This document shows positions 29,980 to 62,527 of a stretch of 64,000 bases of DNA, piece after piece. Source of the DNA: Undibacterium sp. (GTDB taxonomy: Bacteria > Pseudomonadota > Gammaproteobacteria > Burkholderiales > Burkholderiaceae_D). Numbering within the stretch: position 1 is the stretch's first letter; every line of letters begins with the position of its first letter. The notes beneath the pieces were generated by a model. It was not told the origin of the DNA. It saw only the letters and a program-made list of their open reading frames with translations, and ran no database searches. The position numbers were made by a program, and so were the translations under genes. The stretch is taken from NCBI GenBank assembly GCA_030645915.1, contig JAUSNO010000030.1, positions 124,001 through 188,000 on the forward strand, in the 5' to 3' direction.

Positions 29980-30006
29980 TTATCGGGGGAATAGTACAAA
30001 ACTTTA
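29980..30006 (-). promoter_or_regulatory. sigma-28 (FliA) promoter for flgKL
   Basis: On the minus strand the sequence reads TAAAGTTT (30006-29999), an 11-base spacer, then CCCGATAA (29987-29980). This matches the TAAAGTTT-N11-GCCGATAA consensus at 15 of 16 positions. It is placed 56 bases before the flgK ATG, making flgKL a late flagellar operon. Confidence 0.88.
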
Positions 30007-38521: not shown

Positions 38522-38548
38522 TAAAGTTTAAAATAACACAGCCGATAT
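38522..38548 (+). promoter_or_regulatory. sigma-28 (FliA) promoter for flgMN
   Basis: TAAAGTTT (38522-38529), an 11-base spacer, then GCCGATAT (38541-38548): 15 of 16 consensus positions with ideal spacing, about 45 bases before the flgM GTG. This is the usual late promoter through which FliA makes its own anti-sigma factor. Confidence 0.92.
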
Positions 38549-38592
38549 ACAAGACGTAGATGTATACAAATCCCACCAGAAAGGGTATTGCT

Positions 38593-38901
38593 GTGAAAAT
38601 CGATGACGCACTAAATAAGACCGCCGGACTTCCGCTTGGGCCACCACAAACACGTACAGAGAAGTCACCAGAGAAGACCGAAGTAACTAATACGCCTTCT
38701 CATAGTGTTCAAATTTCTTCTTTATCGACACAATTACAAGCGATGCAAAATACGCAGGCAAGCGGTGCTGTATTTGAAACCAAAAAAGTAGAAGCTATCA
38801 AGCTCGCCATTTCTGAGGGACGCTTTCAAGTCAATTCAGAGAAGGTTGCTGATGGACTGTTAGAAACGGTAAAAGATCTACTTAACTCTAGAAAACGATA
38901 A
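38593..38901 (+). CDS. flgM: anti-sigma-28 factor
   Basis: A 102-residue FlgM if translation starts at the GTG at 38593, which has AAAGGG eight bases upstream; an in-frame ATG at 38560 lies almost on top of the transcription start predicted from the sigma-28 promoter and is less likely. The conserved C-terminal part, VEAIKLAISEGRFQVNSEKVADGLLE, is represented by its core AISEGRFQVNSEKVADGL. FlgM holds FliA inactive until it is exported through the finished hook. It is seven bases upstream of flgN. Confidence 0.92.
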   Translation: MKIDDALNKTAGLPLGPPQTRTEKSPEKTEVTNTPSHSVQISSLSTQLQAMQNTQASGAVFETKKVEAIKLAISEGRFQVNSEKVADGLLETVKDLLNSRKR

Positions 38902-40290: not shown

Positions 40291-41031
40291 TCAGATTTTA
40301 TGGTTTGAAATACGCTCTTCAATTATGCGAGGACTATCACCCTGCGCGATACTGAAAAAAATATCAGCCAACATTTCTCGTCGAACTACTTCACGACCAA
40401 CAATTTCTTTGAACTTATTACTAATGGGGAGAAAAAACAAATTCGCCAAACCTACTCCGTAGATAGTTGCAACAAAAGCGACAGCAATTCCGCTTCCTAG
40501 CTTGCTCGGATCAGTGAGGTTTTCCATCACATGAATCAATCCCAAAACTGCGCCGAGTATTCCTATAGTTGGAGAATATCCACCTGCGGCCTCCCAAATT
40601 TTGATCGCTTGACGCTGTTCCATCTCATAAAAAGTGATATCAACATCGAGAATTTCTCTCAACCGCAATGGATCTATACCATCAATAACCAGGCGCAAGC
40701 CTTTGCCAATAAACGGATCCTTTGAAGACTCCATATATCGTTCAAGACTAAGAAACCCTTCGCGACGTGCAACAACACTCCAAATCAAAGCATCCTGCAC
40801 GTTTTTTTTGATGGTATCTTCAGGCATTGTCACGATCCATCTCAGCATCCGAATTCCGCGCATGAAGACAGGTAATCGGCTTTGCAGCAAAACAGCGCCT
40901 ACCGTTCCGACGACAACAATAATAAAGGCCGCTGGTTGAACCAACGACGCCAGACGTCCGCCTTCGACCAATTGACCAAAAAGTATGCCAAAAACAACCA
41001 GTACCAATCCTATTAAGCTAGCCCAGTCCAC
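40291..41031 (-). CDS. motC: flagellar motor stator protein MotC
   Basis: A 246-residue MotA/TolQ-family stator subunit with four membrane helices. The start MDWASLIGLVLVVFGILFGQ uses GTG at 41031, inside the end of fliA (19-base overlap). The proton-channel helices GYSPTIGILGAVLGLIHVM and GSGIAVAFVATIYGVGLANL are well conserved. It pairs with MotD. Cotranscribed with fliA. Confidence 0.93.
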   Translation of the reverse strand: MDWASLIGLVLVVFGILFGQLVEGGRLASLVQPAAFIIVVVGTVGAVLLQSRLPVFMRGIRMLRWIVTMPEDTIKKNVQDALIWSVVARREGFLSLERYMESSKDPFIGKGLRLVIDGIDPLRLREILDVDITFYEMEQRQAIKIWEAAGGYSPTIGILGAVLGLIHVMENLTDPSKLGSGIAVAFVATIYGVGLANLFFLPISNKFKEIVGREVVRREMLADIFFSIAQGDSPRIIEERISNHKI

Positions 41032-41744
41032 GCTCTCTCCCTCAAAGATACCCGAAGTCGGGCTACTGCTTGACTGTGAAGTTGGGACACCCTTGATTCG
41101 GAAACCCCCATGACTGCACCTATCTCCTTCAAATTTAACTCTTGCTCATAATACAAACCCATCAACAGTTTTTCTCTTTCGGGCAAACTATTGATTGCCT
41201 CAATCACGGCATCGCGAAAATCGCCATGCAATAAATCCTGAAGTGGATCACCCGATAGATCTGAACTGTAATGATCCAGAAAATGTTCTTTGGTGTCTGC
41301 ATCATGAAAATCTTCGTAGTAAACCAACTGATGGCCACCACTTTCGCCTAATAAATCCTGGTATTCAGTGAGAGATAATTTTAGTAACTTAGCCACCTCA
41401 GTTTCCAACGGTGGACGGCCTAATTTTTGCTGCAGCGAAGTCATGGCATTTTCAATTTTACGCATATTTTGCCGCACGCCACGAGGTAACCAGTCACTAC
41501 TACGCAGCTCATCGAGCATCGCGCCACGAATGCGCTGAACCGCGTAAGTTTCGAACTGCGCACCATGATTATCTTCATAACGATTCACAGCATCAAGCAA
41601 ACCTATCATTCCCGCTTGTACAAGGTCATCGACTTCTACACTAGGGGGCAATCTGGCTTTTAACTGATAAGCCAAACGCTTTACTAGTGGAGCGTGCTCC
41701 TTAAGTATGGAATTTTTATCGGATTTTCCGCTGGCGGTGTACAT
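41013..41744 (-). CDS. fliA: flagellar sigma-28 factor
   Basis: A 243-residue RNA polymerase sigma factor FliA. Region 2 contains DDLVQAGMIGLLDAVNRYED and the DNA-melting segment FETYAVQRIRGAMLDELRSSDW; region 4 has ESRVSQLHSQAVARLR. It drives the late genes and is inhibited by FlgM. The gene lies six bases after flhG and overlaps motC. Confidence 0.97.
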   Translation of the reverse strand: MYTASGKSDKNSILKEHAPLVKRLAYQLKARLPPSVEVDDLVQAGMIGLLDAVNRYEDNHGAQFETYAVQRIRGAMLDELRSSDWLPRGVRQNMRKIENAMTSLQQKLGRPPLETEVAKLLKLSLTEYQDLLGESGGHQLVYYEDFHDADTKEHFLDHYSSDLSGDPLQDLLHGDFRDAVIEAINSLPEREKLLMGLYYEQELNLKEIGAVMGVSESRVSQLHSQAVARLRVSLRERAWTGLA

Positions 41745-57538: not shown

Positions 57539-58468
57539 CTATTTTTTCGCCTCGTCTATCTTCTCGGAGTTAACATCTCCAGAATTCGCAATCTCAATTG
57601 TTCCACCATCTTGAGACGCGGTTTGCTCAGCTTTCTTGTTCATAACAATAATACTAATGCGTCGATTAATTGGATTGAATGGATCGCTTTTATCAAATAA
57701 AACGGATGATGAAAGTCCCACTACTCGCAATACTTTAGTTTCATCCATCCCCCCATAGATCAATTCTCTACGTGAGGCATTAGCTCGATCAGCTGATAGT
57801 TCCCAGTTACTGTAACCTTTTTCGCCACTCCCATAGGGAGATGCGTCTGTATGACCAGAGAGACTGATTCTATTGGGAACATCATTTAAAGCAAGTCCAA
57901 TTTCGTGGAGAATTTCTCTTGTATAAGGCTGAAGATCAGCTTTTGCAGAAGCAAACATCGGTCTATTTTTTTCATCTACCATCTGAATACGCAATCCCTC
58001 TGACGTGATGTCCAATAGAAGCTGCTTTTTATACTGTTTCAAAGTTGGATTCGACTCGATTGCAGCTTCAATTTTTGCCTTCAGCACTTTCAGTCTATCT
58101 GCATCACTTTTTGCCAATGCAGCTTCAGCAGCCTGAAGATTGTAGGTTTTTTTTGCAGCGACAATGTCACCTTTTTTTGTTTGCCCATCTCTCAGAGTTA
58201 AGTCTTTACCACCACCTTTGATAATACTTGAACTATCACCACTCCCATCACCACCGGACATTGCAACTTTTAAAGGTGTTTTAAAATACTCAGCAATTCC
58301 CTGCAAATTTCCTTTCGCATCAGAACCAAGTAACCACATCAAAAGAAAAAAAGCCATCATAGCTGTTACAAAGTCAGCATATGCAATCTTCCATGCTCCA
58401 CCGTGATGTCCGGCAGCCACTTTTTTTACCCGCTTGACTATTATAGGTCTGAGTTCTTCGTTAGCCAT
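57539..58468 (-). CDS. motB: flagellar motor stator protein MotB
   Basis: A 309-residue MotB. The ion-binding Asp32 is in IAYADFVTAMMAFFLLMWLLG, and the OmpA-like peptidoglycan-binding domain has LSGHTDASPYG and NRRISIIVM. The N-terminal PIIVKRVKK is the usual basic leader. It starts 22 bases after motA. Confidence 0.96.
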   Translation of the reverse strand: MANEELRPIIVKRVKKVAAGHHGGAWKIAYADFVTAMMAFFLLMWLLGSDAKGNLQGIAEYFKTPLKVAMSGGDGSGDSSSIIKGGGKDLTLRDGQTKKGDIVAAKKTYNLQAAEAALAKSDADRLKVLKAKIEAAIESNPTLKQYKKQLLLDITSEGLRIQMVDEKNRPMFASAKADLQPYTREILHEIGLALNDVPNRISLSGHTDASPYGSGEKGYSNWELSADRANASRRELIYGGMDETKVLRVVGLSSSVLFDKSDPFNPINRRISIIVMNKKAEQTASQDGGTIEIANSGDVNSEKIDEAKK

Positions 58469-58490: not shown

Positions 58491-59351
58491 CTATTTGGAT
58501 TTTGATTGTTTAATATGGTCTTCCAACTCAGTGAAAGTAGGTCGCTCCGTTGAATAAAGAACCTTCCGGCCAAACTCAACAGCAAGAGCTGGAGCATACC
58601 CATTTAAACTTGCAAGCAAAGTTACTTTAATACATTGAAATGTTTTTGATGACTCATCTAACTGCTGCTCCATTAGACTCGATAAGGGACCAACAAAACC
58701 GTAGGCTAACAAAATACCTAAAAAAGTCCCTACTAGTGCATGGGCAATCAAAATACCCAATTCCGCAGGCGGGATTCCTACAGACTCCATCGTATGTACC
58801 ACCCCCATTACCGCAGCAACTATACCAAATGCTGGTAATCCGTCGCCAAGCTTTGCAATAAAATGAGCGGGTATCGCCCCCTCGTGATGATGTGTATCCA
58901 ACTCATTATCCATAAGGTTTTCAATTTGAAATGCATCCATATTTCCTGAAACCATTAACCTCAAGTAGTCACTAATAAACTCCATCATGTGATGGTCAGT
59001 AACAATTAAGGGATATTTACTAAATAATGGACTTTCCTCCGGCTTTTCAATATCCCCCTCTATGGACATCAATCCCTCTTTACGAACCTTGGTCAACACA
59101 TCAAAAAGCATGGTCATTAGCTCCATATAAAGAGCTTTTGTATACTTTGAGCCTTTAAGCACGCTCGGCAAGGCCTTTAAAGATGCCTTAAGGGTTTTTG
59201 CACTATTACCGACCATGGATGCACCAACAGCAGCCCCTCCAATCATTAACAGTTCCAAAGGCTGAAACAAAACGGCAAGATGCCCGCCAGACATAACGAA
59301 TCCGCCAAAAACAGATCCCATAACAACGATATAGCCAACGATGACTAACAC
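58491..59351 (-). CDS. motA: flagellar motor stator protein MotA
   Basis: A 286-residue MotA with four membrane helices. GTG at 59351 gives VLVIVGYIVVMGSVFGG, which lines up with the E. coli start MLILLGYLVVLG and has AGGAG eight bases upstream; a TTG two codons earlier is less likely. GDGLPAFGIVAAVMGVVHTM and the FLGILLAYGFVGPL helix are conserved channel segments. Proton- or sodium-driven cannot be decided here. Confidence 0.95.
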   Translation of the reverse strand: MLVIVGYIVVMGSVFGGFVMSGGHLAVLFQPLELLMIGGAAVGASMVGNSAKTLKASLKALPSVLKGSKYTKALYMELMTMLFDVLTKVRKEGLMSIEGDIEKPEESPLFSKYPLIVTDHHMMEFISDYLRLMVSGNMDAFQIENLMDNELDTHHHEGAIPAHFIAKLGDGLPAFGIVAAVMGVVHTMESVGIPPAELGILIAHALVGTFLGILLAYGFVGPLSSLMEQQLDESSKTFQCIKVTLLASLNGYAPALAVEFGRKVLYSTERPTFTELEDHIKQSKSK

Positions 59352-59489
59352 GGGCAAGACTCCTCAGGATGACCTAAACATTAGAAACGAAAAGCACTTA
59401 AAACAATCGAAAATTAAAGAATATCAACATCAGACTTCAAAATCGATTCAGTCTCAAATATTGCTCGCAGAAACATATTTCAAATTCCA

Positions 59490-60290
59490 TTATATGCGCC
59501 ATAAGTAAAGAATAGGATCGTTTACCTTCAAATTAAAGTACAAATCTGGCTTAACATTTGGAATGATAAATTCATAACTAAGCAATATTGATCCAGCGCG
59601 CATTTCGCTCTTAGCTTTCATCCAAAGATCGGGCATGGCTGCGGGAGATAAATAAGCAAAGACTACGTCATACCCATTAAAGTTGATATTTCCATAATTT
59701 CCAAATGTAAATTGTACTTTATCCCTAAAAAATTTACATCTCAGAACACTAATTATCCAAGGAAGGGGAGCAATTTCAATTCCAAAAAAACAGCTATTTT
59801 TTTTAACTCTAGATAATTCTATTAATAGCCCACCGAGTCCACTACCAACATCAATAAAATTTATCGACTTCTCTGATGGCAATAAATCCAAAATAGTTGG
59901 CAACAAAGATGCCTTTGAAGGGTAGTAAGGAACTTGAGTACGAAAAGTCGACCAATAGACGAGCGCAAAGAAAATAAATGCACTTAGATAATAATAAGAT
60001 GGAAGTTCAGAAAAAACGAAAAAAATAATCAGCAGTGGGAATAAGAATTGAATTGGCCACCACCACCAATCAGCATCAAATAAAAAAGAAAAAAAGGCTG
60101 CCATGGCAGCCTGAGTAAAAACGAAAATATATATTGGGAACGACCATAAAAAATCAAAACTTGCAAGAATAGACCACGACAAACAGAATAAAAACGACAT
60201 AATCTGCAGAAATAACGCGAGCACCGCGGGTGGCATTATTGAATTAGCTAGACTTTCCTGATTGTTTTCAAAGTTACTCTTTAATTTCAT
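59490..60290 (-). CDS. membrane-anchored SAM methyltransferase-like protein
   Basis: A 266-residue protein of two parts. Residues about 18-115 form four hydrophobic helices with a striking FDADWWWWPI loop. The rest is a class I methyltransferase fold: motif I INFIDVGSGLGGLLIEL, acidic motif II FFGIEIAP, and NGYDVVFAYLSPAAMPDLW. The soluble half recalls small lysine methyltransferases with a YLSP block, but that is only a resemblance. It lies 22 bases from flhC and 138 from motA, in the middle of the flagellar regulon. The target is unknown; flagellin, stator or receptor are possible. ATG at 60290 is preferred to a TTG two codons upstream. Confidence 0.7.
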   Translation of the reverse strand: MKLKSNFENNQESLANSIMPPAVLALFLQIMSFLFCLSWSILASFDFLWSFPIYIFVFTQAAMAAFFSFLFDADWWWWPIQFLFPLLIIFFVFSELPSYYYLSAFIFFALVYWSTFRTQVPYYPSKASLLPTILDLLPSEKSINFIDVGSGLGGLLIELSRVKKNSCFFGIEIAPLPWIISVLRCKFFRDKVQFTFGNYGNINFNGYDVVFAYLSPAAMPDLWMKAKSEMRAGSILLSYEFIIPNVKPDLYFNLKVNDPILYLWRI

Positions 60291-60318: not shown

Positions 60319-60873
60319 TTATGCGACTAAAGCTAGCGACAACTCCATTTCCCTATGTTTTTTCGTCTTACCAGCACGTGATGGCACATGACATAAACCA
60401 CATGCATAATGATCGTGTAAATCTAACCTATGAGCAACAAATTGCCCACCACATTTATTGCATTTTGCAAAAGTTAACATTTTTCCGTCGAAAAATCTAA
60501 CTAAAGTCCAGGCGCGAGTTAAAGAAAGTACAGGTTCTTCGTTTACAGAAACAGGAACTTGCTCTAAGTAAAGTCTATACGCCTTTACAACTGTTTCTAT
60601 ACCTGTAACACCTGCATGTTTCTGTAAATATTTATGAATATTCATAAATAAAGAGGAGTGAATATTAGGCTGCCAAGTGATAAACCAGTCTGTTGAAAAT
60701 GGCAACATTCCTTTTGGAGGGGAAACACCTTTAAGCTCTTTGTATATTTTAAGTAGACGTTCACGAGAGAGAGACGTCTCAGATTCTAGAAGTTGTAATC
60801 GTGCACCTAAATTAACAAGATCGATTGCCAATTGAATTTCATGCGCTTCATTTACTACGCTTTTAGTTGCCAT
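60319..60873 (-). CDS. flhC: flagellar master regulator subunit FlhC
   Basis: A 184-residue FlhC, start MATKSVVNEAHEIQLA. Four cysteines for zinc are in CNKCGGQFVAHRLDLHDHYACGLC (given here as CNKCGGQF and YACGLC). With FlhD it forms the D4C2 activator of early flagellar promoters. ATG at 60873 is set by AGGTGG five bases upstream. It lies 41 bases after flhD. Confidence 0.96.
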   Translation of the reverse strand: MATKSVVNEAHEIQLAIDLVNLGARLQLLESETSLSRERLLKIYKELKGVSPPKGMLPFSTDWFITWQPNIHSSLFMNIHKYLQKHAGVTGIETVVKAYRLYLEQVPVSVNEEPVLSLTRAWTLVRFFDGKMLTFAKCNKCGGQFVAHRLDLHDHYACGLCHVPSRAGKTKKHREMELSLALVA

Positions 60874-60914: not shown

Positions 60915-61232
60915 TTAATTTATTTCTTCAACGGCTTGACCCGCCATCAAAATAGCAGCATGAGAATGAGCAAGAGCACGCTCTTTATTATAATTTGTGA
61001 GCATGCACAAGATAGAACTATCCTCAAAACGGAATCTTGCCAACATCATATTTGATCCAGCCAGTTTCAAAATTTGTGAATTGTTTAGACCTTCAATAAG
61101 GTCAGCAATTTCTTTGCCAATGCCAAGACGAAAAATTGCAGTTGCCTTATCGGCACGAATCATTTGCTGAGCAAGCATCAGGTAACTTAAGTTAGCATCA
61201 CGAATTTCGGCCATCATATCGTTTGGTGTCAT
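60915..61232 (-). CDS. flhD: flagellar master regulator subunit FlhD
   Basis: A 105-residue FlhD: EIRDANLSYLMLAQQMIRAD and RLGIGKEIADLIEGL are the conserved helices. The ATG at 61232 has GGAGGG seven bases upstream; the frame is open to 61265 but without a site. Transcription comes from a long AT-rich leader that contains a consensus sigma-28 promoter. Confidence 0.96.
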   Translation of the reverse strand: MTPNDMMAEIRDANLSYLMLAQQMIRADKATAIFRLGIGKEIADLIEGLNNSQILKLAGSNMMLARFRFEDSSILCMLTNYNKERALAHSHAAILMAGQAVEEIN

Positions 61233-61798
61233 TATCCTACCCTCCATCCTGTTTAACCTGGCCAAACTGCGTTGCCAGTGAGATACATTGTGGGACTATA
61301 GAAAATACCGATGTATAGGTGGAGTTCGGGATTTAACTTAAGAAAATAACGATATTACCAATAGGAATTTATCCTACAAGCAAATAATTGACATCCGCAA
61401 AAAAATATTTTTACGGAATTTGATTTTTTTAAAATTTCACAAAAAAATAAAGCACTTAAAAATCATATACTTAACTACAAATAAAATTAAGAAAAAAATT
61501 CTATATTTTGTTATCGGCAGTAAAAACAAAAACTTTAGGCTTTGAGAAAAAAATATTTAAAAACATTTCCTACAAATCTATATCGTCAATTTATTGAGAA
61601 ACTTTAACGAAATAATCAAAAATATTAAAAAATATTGAAAATGAACAACAAAATGAGTTTAAAACGGCAACAAAAAATCTAATCCTGATGTTCATATCAA
61701 GGAAAAAATATTTTGATTCGTTTAATGTTGAGGAAGTTTTTGGAAAAATTGAAGACAAGAATTTAAATTGCCGATATGAAAATTCAATTCAACAGAAC
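61233..61798. other. AT-rich leader and promoter region of flhDC
   Basis: A 566-base gap with no credible gene, very rich in A and T with many A and T runs. It holds the sigma-28 site at 61511-61537 and an imperfect hairpin at about 61394-61416 (CCGCAAAAA and TTTTTACGG). A sequence of this kind is a good target for an H-NS/MvaT-like silencer and for several regulators, as known for flhDC in enterobacteria. I could not define a sigma-70 promoter. Confidence 0.6.
61511..61537 (-). promoter_or_regulatory. consensus sigma-28 (FliA) promoter facing flhDC
   Basis: On the minus strand TAAAGTTT (61537-61530), an 11-base spacer, and GCCGATAA (61518-61511) match the FliA consensus at all 16 positions with ideal spacing. 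It points toward flhD, whose ATG is about 270 bases downstream, with no other gene between. It is the best match among the sites found in the window. Confidence 0.88.
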
Positions 61799-62527
61799 CT
61801 AATTTTCTACACTATTCAATCGCCAGATGGCGTTACCATTAGTTTCTTTATCAAGGCCTGATATCAATATATTATGAGCATTCACTTCTAAATTTGTTGC
61901 TGATAATAAAGAGATGTGATGCAACGTGACGTCAGACGTGACTACTTGCGCCATACTACTAACCTGTTCATGTTCTTCTATTTCGATAGAAAAACTATTT
62001 TGTCCTCGAGACATGGCCAAAAAAACATCTGCTAATAACTCAGCATCGAGTAATGCACCGTGCAATTTTCTATGAGAATTAGATACATCATAACGATCAC
62101 AAAGAGCATCAAGTGAATTCCGCTTTCCTGGATGCAATTCTTTAGCCTGTATCAGGGTATCAGTAACGCCTGTTACATGCTCACCACACAAAGGAAAATT
62201 AAGACGAGAAAATTCCGCATTTAAAAAACCAATATCAAATGGTGCATTGTGAATCACAAGCTCAGAGCCGCAAATATATTCAATAAATTCTTCAATAATC
62301 TCTGAAAATTTTGGTTTATCGGATAAAAATTCAGTTGTTAAACCGTGAACCGCCAAAGCTCCCTCTTCGGAATCTCGCTCAGGGTTGATATAACAATGAA
62401 AATTATTCCCTGTCAACTTTCGATTTATTAATTCTACACAACCAATTTCAATAATTCTATTGCCTAGCTTGGGATTGAGACCCGTCGTTTCTGTATCAAG
62501 AACTATTTGTCTTTTCATTGCATTCAT
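61799..62527 (-). CDS. dnaQ: DNA polymerase III epsilon subunit (DEDDh exonuclease)
   Basis: A 242-residue proofreading exonuclease. ExoI DTETTG (Asp11, Glu13), ExoII NAPFDIGFLNAEF and ExoIII with HGALLDAELLADVF (His and Asp) are all present. It corrects replication errors as part of the polymerase III core. A second ATG at 62518 (MKRQIVLDTETTG) matches the usual start. The last about 60 residues contain a short, weakly conserved tail where polymerase-binding normally occurs. It follows tilS by 18 bases. Confidence 0.95.
   Translation of the reverse strand: MNAMKRQIVLDTETTGLNPKLGNRIIEIGCVELINRKLTGNNFHCYINPERDSEEGALAVHGLTTEFLSDKPKFSEIIEEFIEYICGSELVIHNAPFDIGFLNAEFSRLNFPLCGEHVTGVTDTLIQAKELHPGKRNSLDALCDRYDVSNSHRKLHGALLDAELLADVFLAMSRGQNSFSIEIEEHEQVSSMAQVVTSDVTLHHISLLSATNLEVNAHNILISGLDKETNGNAIWRLNSVEN

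Follow-up and report, generated by a model that had tools for sequence, protein, structure and literature searches.

The flagellar cascade is commonly described as one-way, leading from FlhDC to FliA and on to the late genes, with feedback of an indirect kind in enterics. A Salmonella study of 1997 (Kutsukake) reportedly concerned effects of FliA on the flhD operon. The locus described here raises the question of whether FliA (sigma28) might act directly on the master operon. It lies in a stretch of 64,000 nucleotides of an Undibacterium genome (contig JAUSNO010000030.1, positions 124,001 to 188,000), referred to as the window, and an earlier note on this DNA had pointed to a FliA promoter in front of flhDC.

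Flagellar genes of the window

The master operon is encoded on the minus strand by flhD (60915..61232; PF05247, E 3.5e-43; NF002783) and flhC (60319..60873; PF05280, E 5.2e-89; NF009365). It is followed on the same strand by an ORF of 268 codons from a TTG start (59490..60290), by motA (58491..59357; PF20560, PF01618) and by motB (57539..58468; PF13677, PF00691). The ORF had no match in Pfam or NCBIfam and reads like a membrane-anchored methyltransferase; a relative of it sits between flhC and motA in most of the loci examined. Within it, the minus strand has a strong hairpin (60095-60112) that, together with a T-run, resembles a terminator. A conserved flhC-motA terminator was considered and rejected, as this hairpin (60112-60095) is not common to the relatives. 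According to NCBIfam profiles, the window encodes both FliA (41013..41744, minus strand; NF005413, E 8.1e-95) and its anti-sigma factor FlgM (38560..38901, plus strand; TIGR03824, E 5.6e-20). No fliZ-like gene adjoining fliA was seen on inspection of the ORF list.

Two FliA-type sites upstream of flhDC

Upstream of flhD, a gene-free gap of 566 bp extends to an exonuclease gene (61799-62527). Here, the earlier note had read an exact FliA consensus on the minus strand at 61511-61537, and the motif scan recovered this site, named P2, as TAAAGTTT-N11-GCCGATAA with 16/16 positions matching. Its form and its orientation toward flhDC are those of a FliA promoter, as had been claimed. The stretch up to flhD is indeed free of genes; the distance, given as 270 bases, is corrected to 278 nt between the end of the -10 element and the flhD ATG at 61232. 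The single site was real yet only part of the picture, since a second site, P1 (61580..61606, minus strand; TAAAGTTT-N11-GACGATAT, 14/16), is located in tandem 69 bp upstream of P2 on the same strand, with two mismatches. The earlier observation is therefore right, and stronger than it was stated.

A whole-genome motif scan found P2 to be the sole site without mismatch in 4.17 Mb, and the genome's two sites with one mismatch are positioned in front of flgK and flgM. From base composition, the expected number of exact matches is 5.4e-5 for the window and 6.4e-7 for the leader, which has an A+T content of 73%. With up to three mismatches, six matches were present in the window against 0.82 expected. 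As far as can be judged from the sequence, P1 and P2 are very probably tandem FliA promoters of flhDC.

Likeness to known FliA promoters

In E. coli, the class III promoters recognized by FliA (flgM, flgK, motA, fliC) have a common -35/-10 sequence with an 11-nt spacer. The sites described here differ from these in standing before the master operon and, across the genus, in carrying mostly T at position 5 of the -10 element. For a quantitative comparison, we used a matrix built from 25 E. coli ChIP-seq sites (PMC4183435, Table 2; rows taken as FAT >4). The four top-scoring sites of the 64-kb window were P2 (25.7 bits), a site at flgM (22.5 bits), P1 (20.2 bits) and a site at flgK (17.8 bits), and each of them faces its own gene. 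The flgM site (38522..38548, plus strand) and the flgK site (29980..30006, minus strand), both with one mismatch, served as positive controls. P1 and P2 score inside the span of 5.9-26.0 bits covered by the 25 E. coli sites bound in vivo. In 20 Markov sequences modelled on the window, the best site scored between 11.7 and 21.1 bits; one of the 20 exceeded P1 and several exceeded the flgK site. When flhDC flanks of 40 to 60 kb from seven other genomes were inspected, few class III promoters were found, and a recognizable flgK site was present in only one of them (G006).

The flgM genes provide a further comparison. In Undibacterium, TAAAGTTT-N11-GCCGATA[AT] or a near variant precedes flgM in 30/30 loci, and a site with at least 12/16 matches was found in all 30 flgM loci examined from 15 genera of the host family, with -10 variants overlapping those at flhDC. 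Position 5 of the -10 element at flgM is A in 24 of 29 Undibacterium loci, whereas at flhDC it is T in P1 (36/40) as well as in P2 (37/40); the window's own P2 is one of three P2 copies in the genus with A. Among the E. coli FliA sites in the part of the source considered (PMC4183435), A predominates at this position, and most species' flhDC copies may thus be weaker.

Undibacterium fliC sites lean to T at position 5 (37/54, at a lax threshold). Upstream of fliC (L247-L274), two weak sigma28-like sites are found at about 100 and 185 nt, spaced 83-85 bp apart and both present in 26/28 loci, at a lax threshold that also gave 135 antisense matches. Given this fixed spacing, flhDC may not be the only place with a tandem layout in Undibacterium.

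Conservation within Undibacterium

The genus sample comprised 43 genomes, 41 of them with flhC, from which 40 readable leaders were scored. When either A or T is accepted at position 5 of the -10 element, P2 reaches at least 13/16 in 40/40 leaders and P1 in 39/40; both therefore do so in 39/40, and the exception (L096) has scores of 13 and 11. Across the genus, P2 is found 278-309 nt before flhD and P1 another 66-80 bp further out. The spacing between the two is bimodal (66-71 bp in 28/40, 77-80 bp in 12/40). For tandem sites of all genera, a period of about 10.1 bp, as helical phasing would give, was weak after repeated values had been dropped (R 0.21, unique distances). In the genus alignment, the -35 and -10 elements form conserved blocks, whereas the letters of the spacer vary. 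One Undibacterium MAG contains a second, divergent flhDC (L099; G035:C27:52000-58500), whose FlhD is 54% identical and which is without sigma28 sites; this MAG has an estimated contamination of 9%.

Distribution beyond the genus

The earlier note had proposed looking for the motif in the leaders of related Oxalobacteraceae, and there it is kept. Across genera, sites were counted in the last 700 nt before flhD at a threshold of at least 14/16, with a spacer of 11 and either A or T accepted at position 5 of the -10 element. This set consisted of 209 distinct flhD upstream regions, after leaving out one locus with no flhD upstream sequence (L388) and two with less than 200 nt (L145, L392). We detected 243 sense sites in 140 regions, compared to six antisense sites and 0.4 in Markov sequence. 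Allowing A alone at position 5, there were 152 sense sites in 101 regions, five antisense sites and 0.0 in Markov sequence. A leader has one to four sites, two being the commonest number.

Of the 32 genera evaluated in the host family, 23 have a site that matches at 13/16 positions or better and lies no closer than 150 nt to flhD; no such site was found in the other nine (g5, g8, g9, g19, g24, which is Herbaspirillum, g26, g27, g38 and g40). Named carriers include Massilia, Duganella, Janthinobacterium, Herminiimonas and Oxalicibacterium, and further Methylobacillus, Methylovorus, Methylotenera, Sulfuriferula and Nitrosospira. In the wider order, five of 21 other sampled families have the site (13/15 loci), and 24 loci of 16 families are without it.

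A FastTree phylogeny of FlhD+FlhC (184 rows) separates a part of 147 rows (115 with sites, 10 weak, 22 without) from one of 37 rows (two with, none weak, 35 without), although the support of 82 for this split is not strong. Herbaspirillum contributes 10 rows without flhDC sites, and since these are nested among site-bearing rows, a loss is likely. Herbaspirillum sp. SJZ107, which clusters with Massilia, does have flhDC sites.

We also searched 195 whole genomes with a strict form of the tandem arrangement, two copies of TAAAGT-N13-GCCGWTA separated by 30-60 bases. It gave 26 matches in 26/195 genomes of nine genera. Judged by their coordinates, all of these lie a short way upstream of flhC, and no match to the reversed pattern was found in the 195 genomes. 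The pair of the window itself (G000) does not match this strict form, because its P1 reads GACGATAT.

Other conserved elements of the leader

Footprinting across the genus revealed further conserved elements on the minus strand of the leader. An A/T-rich block between P1 and P2 (61540..61570) is possibly an UP element for P2. Nearer to flhD, a conserved inverted repeat, TGTAGGA-n-TCCTA(C), lies at 61358..61379. It is found about 115-150 nt before flhD, as TGTAGGA-n-TCCTAC in Undibacterium and as GTTTGTMAGACAAAC elsewhere, and Herbaspirillum has versions of it too. In a 15-nt form, the repeat occurred in 22/60 genomes, exactly once per genome and, going by coordinates, always upstream of flhC. 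Possible functions are an operator, an activator site near -62 of the proximal promoter, or a leader hairpin. The distance from the repeat to a TAT box is fixed at 50.5 bp in 16 Undibacterium rows, out of 25 with a matched box, which is a lead only, as the palindrome search behind this figure often caught a neighboring hairpin instead.

The conserved CCTATACA (61308..61319) may represent the -10 box of a sigma70-type promoter close to flhD; a consensus scan of the minus strand of the window leader found no sigma70 promoter. Finally, a strongly conserved block, CACAATGTATCTCACTGGCAAC (61271..61294), belongs to the best conserved leader parts across the genus and has a version in other genera.

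A proposed direct feedback loop and alternative explanations

The reading that we prefer is a direct feedback of FliA onto flhDC, gated by FlgM, and from the sites and their distribution we regard it as likely. P1, about 350 nt upstream of flhD, and P2, about 280 nt upstream, would act in addition to a presumed basal promoter proximal to flhD. Upon completion of the hook, FlgM would be exported and FliA-RNA polymerase could start at P1 and P2. Its transcripts would cross the leader into flhDC and perhaps run onward through the next ORF into motAB-che, such that the master operon would become a late operon too. This reading assumes that FliA uses P1 and P2, that the transcripts reach flhD and that the effect is positive in sign; that FlhDC drives fliA in Undibacterium is carried over from the enteric scheme. 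Together with the putative basal promoter, the tandem promoters would then make FlhDC to FliA to FlhDC a direct positive loop gated by assembly, which we consider quite probable. Such a loop would be dispensable, as the sites are missing in Herbaspirillum and in eight other genera of the 32.

The alternative with the best standing, to which we give somewhat less than an even chance, concerns the genes downstream. FliA transcripts from P1 and P2 could extend across flhD, flhC and the ORF behind them as far as motA and take the place of the sigma28 promoter that motA usually has; a rise of FlhDC would be a by-product. In the window, no sigma28-like site with at least 11/16 matches was found in front of motA, and Undibacterium has no conserved sigma28 site at this place. 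From flhD to the distal che genes, the minus strand has no other matrix site of at least 16 bits. Massilia, Duganella and Janthinobacterium share with Undibacterium the presence of flhDC sites and the lack of a conserved motA-front site, while seven of eight named Herbaspirillum (the eighth being SJZ107) and 2/2 Paraburkholderia show the reverse. The pair may therefore also serve motAB-che.

To tabulate these patterns, we used 102 distinct genomes in which both flhC and motA were present and the upstream sequence was long enough; they were drawn from Undibacterium and the named loci, with eight duplicate Undibacterium removed. Sites at flhDC only were present in 78 genomes, at both places in 14, in front of motA only in nine (seven Herbaspirillum and the two Paraburkholderia) and at neither place in one; antisense matches in front of motA occurred in two of the 102. 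Nearly every flhDC-motAB block examined thus has a sigma28-like site somewhere, which in Undibacterium is upstream of flhDC. As the lineages are related and the events few, the association in this table does not represent a set of independent trials. Judged by position or sequence, three of the 14 genomes with both (L083, L084, L371) appear spurious. This leaves about 11 genomes, from several lineages, with flhDC sites and a credible motA-front site, and the flhDC sites are hence not merely a moved motA promoter. The strong hairpin within the flhC-motA ORF of the window, though not conserved, also speaks against transcription reaching motA.

Improbable, in our view, is a second alternative, namely that P1 and P2 serve not for flhDC mRNA but for a short leader RNA, a sigma28-dependent sRNA or attenuator whose end would lie about 115-125 nt ahead of flhD. 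There is a precedent in E. coli, for which four sigma28-dependent sRNAs are described in the part of the source considered (PMC10578931), one of them, UhpU, reaching flhDC via LrhA. Moreover, a hairpin with a T-rich stretch is present 112-125 nt before flhD in 19/41 Undibacterium leaders (lax filter, no shuffle control), and some termination is thus possible there. However, the window's own leader has no qualifying hairpin with T-rich stretch, and outside the genus one is found at 110-127 nt in only 5/169 regions. When hairpins anywhere from 60 to 265 nt were counted with the lax filter, 27/41 Undibacterium leaders were positive versus 27/169 of other genera. A bulge-free terminator scan between P2 and flhD was positive in 2/37 genus leaders, with none in 35/37. 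Further, the sequence from P2 to the hairpin is poorly conserved, and the search of the leader against Rfam returned one sub-threshold match and none above threshold.

We give still less weight to transcriptional interference, in which sigma28 transcription through the proximal promoter would disturb it and yield a negative loop, with flhDC falling after hook completion. P1 and P2 are indeed upstream of the conserved proximal promoter-like block and directed through it, but their transcripts would themselves carry flhDC, and in most of the leaders scanned a conserved terminator is lacking. Least probable is a chance match or a site of another protein: in an A/T-rich leader, predicting a single site may be misleading, and one Markov sequence surpassed P1, yet the tiny number of exact matches expected in the leader, the excess of sense over antisense sites and a bipartite form with fixed spacing and variable spacer letters, as at the flgM promoters, argue against it.

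Relation to known systems

A sigma28 input to FlhDC is known from other bacteria by other routes. In E. coli, the ChIP-seq table considered (PMC4183435, Table 2) lists no FliA site before flhDC. The same source places a sigma28 promoter inside flhC that serves motAB-cheAW; neighborhood and sigma factor are the same as here, but this promoter is downstream of flhD, unlike P1 and P2. A counterpart of it before motA is present in Herbaspirillum and Paraburkholderia and not conserved in Undibacterium.

For Salmonella, the portion of the literature considered describes a feedback of FliA on FlhDC via FliZ, which represses ydiV (PMC4173784). There, too, the late sigma factor raises FlhDC output in connection with the FlgM checkpoint; that route is indirect, through FliZ and ydiV, whereas in the direct loop proposed here FliA itself would transcribe flhDC. 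The E. coli sRNAs UhpU, MotR, FliX and FlgO likewise represent sigma28 feedback on the cascade, in the case of UhpU via LrhA onto flhDC, as far as described in the part considered (PMC10578931). These RNAs act in trans, in contrast to the sites before flhDC, which are in cis. Among the matches listed in ranked searches of the open-licence literature, none described a sigma28 promoter in front of flhDC, and none dealt with Undibacterium together with flhDC.

Implications for the flagellar cascade

Taken together, our analysis suggests that in Undibacterium and many of its relatives, completion of a flagellum acts back on the master operon and holds it active. More tentatively, and with rather less than even confidence, we propose that in Oxalobacteraceae, Methylophilaceae and some neighbors flhDC occupies the first tier of the flagellar hierarchy and the last one as well, the tandem sigma28 promoters closing it into a direct, self-sustaining loop with FlgM export as its sole gate. 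A finished hook would then latch cells into motility, and bistable flagellation could arise with neither FliZ nor YdiV. Herbaspirillum would provide a lineage without the flhDC sites, an absence with which the motA promoter goes along. If the proposed direct loop holds, an input of sigma28 to flhDC, conserved in a large environmental group, would reverse one edge of the cascade and link hook completion to master expression, offering a simple system for how one-way cascades become latches.
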